Shown: in pieces, positions 16,405-19,310 of the stretch
Numbering within the stretch: position 1 is the stretch's first letter
Layout of the letters: each line of letters starts with the position of its first letter
Source of the DNA: a virus
Reading direction: 5' to 3' (one strand)
Length of the DNA stretch: 64,000 bases
Virus record (IMG/VR): IMGVR_UViG_3300022752_000036
Coordinates: 1-64,000 of that record
Made by a program: the position numbers and the translations under genes
The notes under the pieces: model-generated
Told to the model about the DNA's origin: nothing
What the model saw: only the letters and a program-made list of their open reading frames with translations
Database searches by the model: none

Positions 16405-16587
16405 CTATTTAGGATTATCAGTCTTATAAAACCCACTACCTTTAAACTGAATTCCAAAAGAACCATACTGTTTTATCATTGCTGCACCACATTTTTCACA
16501 AAGCTCTGTCATTGTTGCTTCATTTATTGGCTTGTTAACTTCTTTAGTATGTTCACATATAATACATTTATAATCGTATGAAGGCAT
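16405..16587 (-). CDS. FmdB-type zinc-ribbon protein (60 aa)
   Basis: MPSYDYKC at the start with CIIC, then CEKCG near residue 34, followed by an FKGSGFYKTD end: the usual FmdB/putative regulatory protein pattern. One zinc ion is expected. Shares a base with the stop of the enzyme gene upstream (TAATG), so it is coupled to it. Confidence 0.8.
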   Translation of the reverse strand: MPSYDYKCIICEHTKEVNKPINEATMTELCEKCGAAMIKQYGSFGIQFKGSGFYKTDNPK

Positions 16588-17594
16588 TACTTTTCCAATC
16601 TATGATATGATTCTTTAAGGCTTGCACTTGAAACTTTAATAAATTCAGCTTCTTTAGCAAGATCAGAAAGATGTTTTACTCCTCCGTAAGAACATCCACT
16701 TGATATTGAATTCTTTATATTACTTAATGTTTCAACTACGCTTCCTTTAATTGAAACCTTACCCTCTTCTCCCTCTTTATATGGATTTTTAATGCCCATA
16801 TCAATTTGAAGATTTTCTGAAGCCAGTCCTCTGAATGCTCCAGGTTCTCCATCGCACTCTATATGTCCAGCAAATATTGATCCCATCATTACGGCGCTAG
16901 CTCCAGCAGCAAAAGCCTTTACGATATCGCCATTATTTTTAATTCCGCCATCCGCAACAATTCCATTTACACTATCATCTTTAACTCTTTTATATATATC
17001 AATTATAGATGCCAATGCTGGAACTCCAAATCCAGTATTTACTCTTGTCATACAAGCTGCTCCGCCGCCAATTCCAACTCTAACTGAATCAGCTCCAGCA
17101 TCCATCAAATTTTTATATGCACCGTATGAAGATACATTTCCAATCATTATATGAACGTCATCTGGAACAATAGATCTCAATCGTTTGACTGCATTAATTG
17201 CTTCATTTGTGTGTCCAAAAGCTGTGTCTATCAGTATTGTATTTACATGATTTTCCAATAAATATTCTACATACTTTACGGTTGAACAGTCGCTTATATT
17301 AATTGATACGCCAGCATTATTTTTTAACAATTCTATTTGTCTATGCTTTGATGATATGCTTTGATGTCTCTGAACAAAACCTAATCCGCCTTTATAAAAT
17401 ATAGATTTTAACATTTCTGTACTACTAATATATTCCATAGGAGCAATCATTACTGGTAAAGAAAATTTTTTCCATGCTTTAGGATTATTTGGATTTCCTA
17501 AGATCATAGTAGTATCAACCAATGATCTACTTTCAACATTACTATTGTCAGAAGGTACTAGCAGAACATCATCATAACATAATGATTCTTGCAT
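16587..17594 (-). CDS. GMP reductase / IMP dehydrogenase-like enzyme (335 aa)
   Basis: A single TIM-barrel domain with family motifs: YDDVLL near the start, MIAPME, the active-site loop VGIGGGAACMTR with Cys181, ADGGIKNNGDI at 214-224 and MMGSIFAG, then AFRGLAS. The Cys loop forms the thioimidate with IMP or GMP. There is no CBS domain and the length is nearer GMP reductase (about 345) than IMP dehydrogenase (about 490). The usual GxGPGSxCxT is here GxGGGAACMT. It would interconvert GMP and IMP, or feed guanine-derived DNA modification (inference). Part of the coupled nuclease-reductase-FmdB operon behind the structured leader. Confidence 0.85.
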   Translation of the reverse strand: MQESLCYDDVLLVPSDNSNVESRSLVDTTMILGNPNNPKAWKKFSLPVMIAPMEYISSTEMLKSIFYKGGLGFVQRHQSISSKHRQIELLKNNAGVSINISDCSTVKYVEYLLENHVNTILIDTAFGHTNEAINAVKRLRSIVPDDVHIMIGNVSSYGAYKNLMDAGADSVRVGIGGGAACMTRVNTGFGVPALASIIDIYKRVKDDSVNGIVADGGIKNNGDIVKAFAAGASAVMMGSIFAGHIECDGEPGAFRGLASENLQIDMGIKNPYKEGEEGKVSIKGSVVETLSNIKNSISSGCSYGGVKHLSDLAKEAEFIKVSSASLKESYHRLEK

Positions 17595-18001
17595 TACTTG
17601 CCGCTTTGTTTTCTCTTTTCAGCCAAGATTGCAAAATCTTTGATCTTGGTTTCTCCCATATAGCTCCATGCGTATCCGTCTTCAATCATCTGTTCATTAA
17701 TGGATTTTGTTGCACCATTAATATATACCCATCCTAAAATTCTTCCATACTTTTCAGAAGAATCTGGTAGTTCTGTTTTAATAACTATATCAGATGCATC
17801 TTTTAGTTTTGACTTAACATATTCTTTTGCTTCAAGACCCAATGTTTTTTCAAATTTATCCTTGGTACGTGATTCTGGAGTGTCAATACCAGCAAGGCGT
17901 ACTCGCTGGGAATAGGAAACATTAAATCCAAGGTCGATGTCGACATCAATAGTGTCTCCATCTACAACTCCTACAAGCTTTTTTACACGATACTCGTACA
18001 T
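17594..18001 (-). CDS. thermonuclease (SNase)-like protein (135 aa)
   Basis: The start ATG at 18001 has AGGAG four bases upstream; the open frame extends 22 codons further, but only through the structured leader. SNase signatures: VVDGDTIDVDI, RLAGIDTPE and EKYGRILGWVY, giving the Asp, Arg and Glu of the calcium-dependent active site. No signal peptide, so it should stay in the cytoplasm, possibly degrading host DNA or RNA. The stop overlaps the next start by one base. Confidence 0.87.
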   Translation of the reverse strand: MYEYRVKKLVGVVDGDTIDVDIDLGFNVSYSQRVRLAGIDTPESRTKDKFEKTLGLEAKEYVKSKLKDASDIVIKTELPDSSEKYGRILGWVYINGATKSINEQMIEDGYAWSYMGETKIKDFAILAEKRKQSGK

Positions 18002-18097
18002 TATTCTCCTAATTTTAATGAGCAGTTTAGCCGCATGCTCAGGCGGATCCTGGGCAGCGATGCCCAAATCTGCGACTCCCCGATGAAAGGGTGCAGA
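18002..18097 (-). ncRNA. structured 5' leader RNA with H-type pseudoknot (candidate riboswitch)
   Basis: A GC-rich island in AT-rich DNA, beginning at the expected start of a TATAAT promoter and ending at the nuclease ribosome site. On the minus strand: outer stem UCUGC/GCAGA (18097-18093 with 18073-18069) around a CCC/GGG hairpin; a 6-bp hairpin UGGGCA/UGCCCA (18066-18051); then CCGC/GCGG (18046-18043, 18034-18031), whose loop UGAGCA (18041-18036) pairs with UGCUCA (18024-18019). Connecting loops are 1, 1 and 6 bases, ideal for an H-type pseudoknot. I cannot match it to a riboswitch class. Ligand and function unknown. Confidence 0.65.
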
Positions 18098-18102
18098 ACT
18101 AT

Positions 18103-18110: not shown

Positions 18111-18530
18111 TTATTTAATTTTGATGGTCTTTGGTTTCTTTTCTTCGGGAATGTTTCTTTCCACAAAGATATCAAGAATGCCGTCTGCCATTTCAGCACG
18201 ATCTACCTCCATATACTCTCCAAGAGCAAAGGTGCGTGTGAATTTTCTAGCGGCGATACCCTTATGAAGAACTTCATGAGAAGTGTCTTCGGTTTTCTCA
18301 CCCTTGATTACTAAGCTTCCATTATCCACAGAAACCTCAACTTCGCTTTTGCTAAAACCAGCAATAGCTAAAGATAATTTGTAAGTGTCCTCGTCAATCT
18401 TTACCAAGTTATATGGTGGGTATGATTGATGAGTAGCCTCACGATGGATATGTGAAAGACGGTCCAACTCTCTGTTGAAACCAATAAAAAACGGATCATT
18501 AAAAAGATCCAATGCAAAATGTGTTACCAT
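18111..18530 (-). CDS. hsp20: Hsp20 / alpha-crystallin small heat-shock protein
   Basis: 139 aa, with the alpha-crystallin domain at about residues 38-130: YKLSLAIAGFSKSEVEVSV, LVIKGEK, RKFTRTFALGEYMEV, then ADGILDIFVERNIPEE. It ends in the basic IKIK tail (I-x-I-type anchor). AGGAGGAAT is a near-perfect ribosome site. Hsp20 proteins hold unfolding proteins; phage copies are common in aquatic phages and may aid capsid assembly or protect during infection. An own -10 box and a hairpin leader lie upstream. Confidence 0.92.
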   Translation of the reverse strand: MVTHFALDLFNDPFFIGFNRELDRLSHIHREATHQSYPPYNLVKIDEDTYKLSLAIAGFSKSEVEVSVDNGSLVIKGEKTEDTSHEVLHKGIAARKFTRTFALGEYMEVDRAEMADGILDIFVERNIPEEKKPKTIKIK

Positions 18531-18596: not shown

Positions 18597-18607
18597 CCAT
18601 ATTGCAG

Positions 18608-18680
18608 AGCCCCGTAACAGAATCGAACTGTTGACCTACGCATTACAAGTGCGTCGCTCTACCGTCTGAGCTAACAGGGC
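18608..18680 (-). tRNA. tRNA-Thr (TGT)
   Basis: 73 bases. Acceptor GCCCTGT/ACGGGGC with one G-U, D stem GCTC/GAGC, anticodon loop CTTGTAA, T loop TTCGATT. CCA not encoded. Reads ACA, common in AT-rich genes. Confidence 0.95.
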
Positions 18681-18684
18681 TTGG

Positions 18685-18755
18685 AGCGGATGACGAGAAT
18701 CGAACTCGCACCATCTGCTTGGAAGGCAGAAGCACTACCATTATGCAACATCCGC
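18685..18755 (-). tRNA. tRNA-Gly (TCC)
   Basis: 71 bases, acceptor GCGGATG/CATCCGC, anticodon loop CTTCCAA, T loop TTCGATT. Unlike the neighbouring tRNAs the CCA end is encoded (18684-18682). Reads GGA. Confidence 0.95.
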
Positions 18756-18759
18756 ATTG

Positions 18760-18832
18760 CTGGACCACCAGGGCTCGAACCTGGGACCTAGAAGTTAACA
18801 GCTTCCCGCTCTGCCGACTGAGCTATGGTCCA
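18760..18832 (-). tRNA. tRNA-Asn (GTT)
   Basis: 73 bases, acceptor TGGACCA/TGGTCCA, anticodon loop CTGTTAA, T loop TTCGAGC, discriminator G. CCA not encoded. Confidence 0.95.
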
Positions 18833-18836
18833 TTTG

Positions 18837-18909
18837 CGCCTTTGGCAGGAGTCGAACCTGCGACCAAGACCTTAGAAGAGTCCTGCTCTGTCCTCTGAGC
18901 TACAAAGGC
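18837..18909 (-). tRNA. tRNA-Arg (TCT)
   Basis: 73 bases, acceptor GCCTTTG/CAAAGGC, D stem GCTC/GAGC, anticodon loop CTTCTAA, T loop TTCGACT. Reads AGA, typically rare in GC-richer actinobacteria and used often here. Confidence 0.95.
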
Positions 18910-19224: not shown

Positions 19225-19236
19225 ATTGCTCCTTTG

Positions 19237-19310
19237 TGCAACAGGTAGGACTTGAACCTACGATAGCCGAATTATGAGTTCGGGGCCTTAACCAACTTGG
19301 CTACTGTTGC
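19237..19310 (-). tRNA. tRNA-Met (CAT), possibly Ile2
   Basis: 74 bases, acceptor GCAACAG/CTGTTGC, anticodon loop CTCATAA, T loop TTCAAGT, discriminator A. The G1-C72 pair argues against an initiator. CAT could also be an isoleucine tRNA if lysidine-modified. Its D loop supplies the stop codon of the upstream gene. Confidence 0.92.

Follow-up and report, generated by a model that had tools for sequence, protein, structure and literature searches.

Luteovirus-type frameshifting pseudoknots (BWYV) are very small H-type folds with a short loop L1 starting with C and an A-rich loop L3, and the RNA element described in this work shares these features. With respect to mRNA stability, 5' hairpins that leave a transcript paired from its first nucleotides are known stabilisers. 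The gene 32 leader pseudoknot of phages T4, T2 and RB69 resembles our element in being a small H-type fold with a short L1 in a phage mRNA leader; it serves one gene in T4-like phages, where gp32 binds it some 67 nt ahead of the start codon (PMC3014915). At the 3' end of messages, RNase R needs a single-stranded overhang of about 7 nt (PMC12320835).

We analysed the leader of a thermonuclease operon in a viral window of 64,000 nucleotides (positions 1-64,000 of IMG/VR record IMGVR_UViG_3300022752_000036), whose last structured module, here called D, is a 27-nt pseudoknot that also occurs outside this operon.

A modular leader ahead of the thermonuclease operon

The leader is located on the minus strand between an Hsp20 gene and three coupled genes, and its features in the window are as follows.

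18111-18530, minus: Hsp20 gene, upstream of the leader (PF00011, E = 1e-19; stop codon 18113-18111)
18108-18103, minus: TATAAT, predicted to be the -10 box of the promoter for the leader, read from the sequence, 2 nt past the Hsp20 stop codon
18097-18069, minus: module A, nested hairpin from about +1 (TCTGC A CCCT TTCATC GGGG AGTC GCAGA), with outer stem TCTGC/GCAGA, inner stem CCCT/GGGG and internal loop A / AGTC
18066-18051, minus: module B, 6-bp hairpin TGGGCA-TCGC-TGCCCA, read from the sequence; stems and loops differ in relatives
18050-18047, minus: conserved linker GGAT, after hairpin B
18046-18020, minus: module D, 27-nt H-type pseudoknot, from sequence and covariation
18046-18043 with 18034-18031, minus: stem S1 of D, CCGC/GCGG, 4 bp
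18042-18041, minus: loop L1 of D, CT
18040-18036 with 18024-18020, minus: stem S2 of D, GAGCA/TGCTC, 5 bp
18035, minus: loop L2 of D, T
18030-18025, minus: loop L3 of D, CTAAAC
18010-18006, minus: AGGAG, Shine-Dalgarno sequence of the thermonuclease gene, read from the sequence, 9 nt past the end of D
17594-18001, minus: thermonuclease (SNase family), first gene behind the leader (PF00565, E = 3.1e-17; ATG 18001-17999)
16587-17594, minus: IMP dehydrogenase / GMP reductase-like enzyme (PF00478, E = 1.1e-63)
16405-16587, minus: FmdB-type zinc ribbon protein (PF09723, E = 2.9e-9)

The coordinates and elements that the original prediction had assigned to this leader, from the -10 box through both hairpins and the pseudoknot to the Shine-Dalgarno sequence and the ATG, proved to be correct. 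Its GC-rich island was also found (51% GC in 18000-18099, against 34-45% in overlapping and neighbouring intervals), and the three downstream genes it had named carry the expected domains. For the pseudoknot geometry, the classic H-type fold and the 4-bp S1 held, while the proposed 6-bp S2 and 1-nt L1 gave way to a conserved form with a 5-bp S2 and a 2-nt L1, a sixth pair, T-A, being possible in the copy of the window. The window also contains tRNAs for Thr, Gly, Asn, Arg and Met (18607-18909 and 19236-19310, minus), four of them upstream of Hsp20 and the fifth further upstream; D precedes none of them in this genome.

The transcript had been expected to start with this structure, and relatives agree. 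Among 99 occurrences of module A (25 of them distinct), 90 begin exactly 5 nt after TATAAT or TACAAT, which predicts a transcript whose very first nucleotides are already paired. TATAAT is kept ahead of the same leader modules in relatives whose upstream genes differ, and in one of them (L533) TTGACA precedes it at sigma-70 spacing; on these sequence features, we infer a promoter and a transcript start for the leader. The inner stem and the first outer pair of module A covary, with 97.8% of cells paired and a covariation score of 0.291, compared with 0.179 ± 0.017 in shuffles.

From promoter to ribosome site, the relatives carry several combinations of A, B, D and a further module, C (TCGGGGGAGACAGCGA...AAATAACTG), and in some of them (for example L001, L003 and L011) an FmdB-type zinc ribbon gene rather than the thermonuclease gene lies directly behind the leader. 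Since relatives of the operon lack module A or use a different module set, the island of about 95 nt is a modular array and not a single aptamer. Module C is a second pseudoknot-like element (L016, L022, L034, L077, L079, L469-L586) with an invariant loop GGGGAGACAG, covarying outer stem pairs and an A-rich tail, in which a 3' CUG could pair with the CAG of the loop; at least 120 stretches of viral DNA match its core, in most cases with a TATAAT promoter ahead of it and D behind. Outside the window, near position 89571 on the minus strand of the same genome (G000; L587/L588), another TATAATA is followed by two hairpins, TTGGGTTAACACCCAA and CCTGGGCACAATGCCCAGG, which resembles the same kind of leader without D.

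Covariation and distribution of pseudoknot D

The nested-only minimum free energy of the leader is unremarkable (z = -0.69) and thus uninformative, and we therefore took the evidence from relatives. A 22-mer of D is present in 13 viral contigs. Thermonuclease homologues, which were collected by protein similarity and not by RNA, carry D ahead of the gene with changing stems. A loop-anchored scan that required 7 or more of the 9 pairs passed 21 sequences, two of which were removed by eye as chance matches, since they lack the S2 and the position of the others. In the remaining 19 distinct leaders, 98.2% of the D stem cells are paired, a value that this requirement itself favours. Changes on both sides occurred in 25 stem cells of these sequences, compared with 6.1 in shuffles, and the covariation score reached 0.485, against 0.163 ± 0.025 when shuffled and at most 0.14 in slid controls.

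Larger sets were found by pattern. Among 84 such D sequences, whose S2 letters are fixed by construction so that only S1 and placement are unbiased, 140 cells of S1 had changed on both sides, in three pairs. For S2, the compensated variant GGGCA/UGCCC was found in at least 120 IMG/VR stretches, compared with 13 for the mismatched control GAGCA/UGCCC, and other S2 types appeared unprompted in the fetched loci (AAGCA/UGCUU, GGACA/UGUCC, GGGUA/UACCC, AGACA/UGUCU and GGCCA/UGGCC). A general scan of these loci gave 322 D, most of them selected by the search pattern and about 40, with other S2 letters, not so selected, against 9 in shuffled sequence. Covariation, the check proposed for homologous leaders, thus supports both interleaved stems, and judged by comparison of sequences D is a genuine H-type pseudoknot. 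Its consensus reads S1 (4 bp, free sequence), C U, S2 (5 bp), N, S1', NN AAAC, S2', in which S2 is mostly GAGCA/UGCUC or GGGCA/UGCCC; the CU in L1 and the AAAC in L3 fit the groove triples that stiffen small pseudoknots.

The main D pattern matched at least 120 viral stretches and at least 116 bacterial or archaeal stretches, with about 30 chance matches expected in the genome collection by our estimate. S1 is missing in about one quarter of the bacterial and archaeal genome matches, while all viral matches keep at least three of the four S1 pairs. D is a member of a widespread family of 27-nt H-type pseudoknots that lie in intergenic positions, chiefly of phage genomes. In GenBank, D was found in phages such as Roseophage SIO1, Lactobacillus KC5a, phiAQ113, phig1e, crAss-like cr7_1, Mycobacterium Labelle, Nostoc NMeng1, phiETA (with an S2 of only 4 bp), D6E and Bacillus Pony. 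The family is present in hundreds of phages, laboratory and reference phages among them, and most of its GenBank phage matches fall in unannotated intergenic DNA. The link to the nuclease/GMP-reductase operon made by the original prediction was not sustained, because the same D precedes unrelated genes, tRNAs and hammerhead ribozymes; conservation specific to the thermonuclease-operon leader was ruled out by the same collection scans.

The original prediction could not place the leader in a known riboswitch class, and the leader indeed has no match in Rfam 15 at gathering score. At E up to 10, no credible match was found there either, riboswitch and ribozyme families included; the sole matches were to ciliate telomerase, which lay on the opposite strand (E 0.28), and to a fragment of 14 nt (E 4.2). 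The leader of L022 (A, C and D) had no Rfam match at E up to 5, and blastn of our leader against GenBank phages recovered the thermonuclease coding sequence only. Literature searches by motif letters or by topic found no description of D, the 224-motif survey of Weinberg et al. 2017 lying outside this comparison. D is therefore an undescribed structured RNA family in the sense that it is absent from Rfam 15, and it may have been described elsewhere.

Several specific identities were set aside. A ZTP riboswitch, suggested by a resemblance at CCGCCUGGGCA, was rejected because Rfam gave no match, and a self-cleaving ribozyme was rejected because no ribozyme family of Rfam matched the leader. A ToxI-like RNA of a type III toxin-antitoxin system would have tandem repeats, whereas the whole 95,645-base record contains a single D without such repeats, followed by SNase, IMPDH/GMPR and zinc ribbon genes and not by a ToxN-type toxin.

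Placement relative to genes, tRNAs and ribozymes

D is intergenic: 8 of 191 copies lie inside a same-strand open reading frame, compared with 374 of 955 random positions. Most copies follow a stop codon with no promoter between the stop and D, and the spacing between stop codon and S1 sets in sharply at 5 nt, which is also its mode; the independent GGGCA set shows the same placement with a floor of 4-5 nt. This position corresponds to the expected mRNA entry of a ribosome that is terminating. The stop codon ahead of D is TAA in 81 of 118 cases. Toward the gene behind, D mostly leaves 17 nt or more to the start codon, with a mode of 19-20 and few values under 17, which places it mostly just outside the footprint of an initiating 30S subunit, and the distance from D to the Shine-Dalgarno sequence is most often 9-10 nt.

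Such spacing on both sides would suit a translation insulator, in which D acts on ribosomes and not on nucleases, either blocking unrecycled ribosomes or making a standby site. The sharp 5-nt distance past stop codons, as in recoding pseudoknots, the match of the start-codon spacing to the 30S footprint and the predominance of TAA all speak for it; the copies ahead of tRNAs and hammerheads, with no start codon directly downstream, make us regard it as improbable. Stop-codon readthrough with MLV-like spacing was rejected, given the same predominance of TAA and the many D that precede tRNAs or ribozymes.

We also considered that D may serve as an operator to which an RNA-binding protein of the phage or of its host attaches, in the manner of the pseudoknot in the T4/T2 gene 32 leader, on which a translational repressor nucleates. 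The fold class is shared with that pseudoknot and the loop geometry is similar (PMC3014915), the fixed loop letters CU and AAAC could be contacts, and D often ends 19-20 nt ahead of start codons. However, no translation start follows the copies before tRNAs and ribozymes, the placement is anchored on stop codons, and no consistent downstream partner was found, with 57 PHROG families among 45 downstream proteins being too diverse for autoregulation. We consider an operator unlikely.

The reading as a metabolite riboswitch, for example for purines, controlling the nuclease/GMP-reductase operon came from the original prediction. The operon does contain a purine enzyme, many loop letters of modules A and C are invariant and these modules might conceivably have a binding partner, and the preQ1-I and SAM-II riboswitches likewise have a compact pseudoknot near the ribosome-binding site. 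Against this, D follows unrelated stop codons and occurs with unrelated genes without association to one pathway, the module composition varies between relatives of the same operon, and Rfam riboswitches (including the preQ1, SAM, ZTP and NAD classes) gave no match at E up to 10. Pairing of the 3' strand of S2 with the Shine-Dalgarno sequence, a measure that covers only this alternative SD-hiding pairing, is not in excess of shuffled linkers, either in thermonuclease leaders (31 observed, 28.0 expected) or outside them (48 observed, 51.3 expected), and Shine-Dalgarno sequestration, suggestive in the single leaders L018 and L022, was dropped. A riboswitch is therefore very unlikely in our judgement, and taken as a whole the original interpretation is partly supported. 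Even less credible is an antitermination array that, like the HK022 put RNAs, would act on RNA polymerase in cis, with D merely the last hairpin: in its favour, the structures start at +1 of a sigma-70-type promoter heading the operon, but D mostly stands after stop codons with no promoter in between, and we regard this reading as highly improbable.

On the downstream side, D is associated with processing sites. A same-strand tRNA lies downstream of D in 23 of 319 cases, compared with 6 of 957 random positions, and upstream in none of the 319. When 465 distinct D sites were pooled, a tRNA of one of 13 anticodons was found within 120 nt in 32, of which 16 are tRNA-Asp from largely one phage context, so that the events are not all independent; the overhang between D and the tRNA is 3-9 nt in 25 of these 32, and a tRNA stands upstream of D in 3 of the 465. 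Hammerhead ribozymes lie directly behind D in L228 (twice), L254, L283, L306, L316 and L337, where cleavage is predicted 6-8 nt past D, and in L096, where it is predicted 13 nt past D, the sites being placed by the hammerhead consensus and, for L254 and the second of L228, by hand. The L228 hammerhead also scores as RF00008. The D family is thus found between a stop codon and a processing site, the location characteristic of a 3' end structure that blocks exonucleases.

Some local contexts recur. The gene most often directly before D belongs to phrog_1221 (C-terminus ..GFDP..AEKNRLL..; 11 of 50 sampled, including L104, L109, L115 and L118), and in many of these loci tRNA-Asp lies directly behind D. 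A conserved open reading frame of about 20 aa (M-K/T-R-F-x-I-P-R-x-A/S-H-C-x-x-G-C...S stop) usually has its TGA stop inside D (L215, L233, L234, L239, L242, L253, L269, L271, L286, L318, L328); here, unlike elsewhere, the terminating ribosome would melt D, possibly in a leader-peptide arrangement. In Firmicutes phages (L331, L334, L589-L592), D lies between the portal/minor-head region and the scaffold and major-head genes, and several of these D have a second possible pseudoknot behind them (phig1e CGCGG-CCGTTA-CCGCG-TAATAAA-TAACG). In L265 (2824-3006, minus), D is 1 nt upstream of a DUF2800 RNA (RF02960), which may be part of a larger array.

A putative end block on phage mRNAs and its closest relatives

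We put at about even the chance that D is a compact folded block that protects or insulates mRNA ends. According to this proposal, D would fold just past the terminating ribosome and just ahead of the 30S footprint of the next gene, and being outside both footprints it would be melted by neither ribosome. It would then act as a passive, very stable RNA block that stops exonucleases, a resistance whose existence and direction we infer. On the 3' side of a gene, cutting by a hammerhead, or by RNase P where a tRNA follows, would leave D as the last structure of the processed mRNA, and as the tail behind it is mostly no longer than the approximately 7 nt that RNase R needs, the upstream message would be protected. 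In the window, D is the closing module, after A at +1 and then B, of a leader predicted to be structured from the first nucleotide on; decay that depends on the 5' end should be resisted by such a leader while leaving the ribosome-binding site of the thermonuclease operon free, and we tentatively view it as an end-protecting array with an open ribosome site.

Several observations count against an end block. RNase R can unwind structured RNA once loaded. A 3'-end role is less obvious for the D of the window, which lies 64 nt past the Hsp20 stop codon and 18 nt ahead of the thermonuclease start codon, with no known processing site, and the group with the tiny open reading frame has a stop codon inside D. 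For the copies before scaffold and major-head genes in Firmicutes phages, a role in protecting the message downstream of D would fit as well. This last point, together with the presence of RNase J in Firmicutes hosts and the position of the window's D in a leader after the +1 hairpin, would favour a block to 5'-to-3' exonucleases such as RNase J, comparable to the viral xrRNAs that block Xrn1. As the tRNA counts show, however, processing sites come after D and not before it, and we hold this reading to be quite unlikely.

The broadest form of the end-block proposal, that D is a sequence-flexible universal pseudoknot cap through which the processed polycistronic mRNAs of phages acquire nuclease-resistant ends, while modules A and C close the other end, is possible, though we incline against it; it would accommodate a 27-nt fold in phages of many bacterial phyla, with ribosome-scale placement between stop codon and cleavage site. 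If D does protect RNA ends, it would explain how messages stay stable after tRNA or ribozyme processing in phages, and it would offer a portable 27-nt stabiliser with simple rules, namely a free S1, few S2 types and distances of 5 nt from the stop codon and 4-7 nt from the cleavage site. Through D, the part that phage hammerheads and tRNAs play in processing mRNA also becomes open to direct tests.

Compared with known systems, D is closest in proposed function to REP elements and terminator hairpins, which likewise place a structure near the stop codon that stops 3'-to-5' exonucleases. These are simple hairpins, whereas D forms a pseudoknot, its loops are conserved, it keeps a fixed spacing to both stop codon and cleavage site, and it lacks a U run. 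Module A leaves the leader paired from about +1, as do the ompA-type 5'-terminal stabilising hairpins, and differs from them in its conserved internal loop and in being followed by further modules, including a pseudoknot. Phage hammerheads that process polycistronic RNA share the intergenic setting, and several stand directly behind D, which itself has no ribozyme core; the passages of their description compared here (Perreault et al. 2011, PMC3088659) mention no separate pseudoknot upstream of the ribozymes. The BWYV-type pseudoknots act on a slippery site within a reading frame, while D is intergenic, mostly after TAA, and requires neither a slippery site nor a continuing frame. Finally, the gene 32 pseudoknot belongs to the leader of a gene for a ssDNA-binding protein; in contrast, the first gene behind D is a thermonuclease here and diverse elsewhere, and hundreds of unrelated phages carry D, for the most part behind stop codons and in some cases beside tRNAs or ribozymes.
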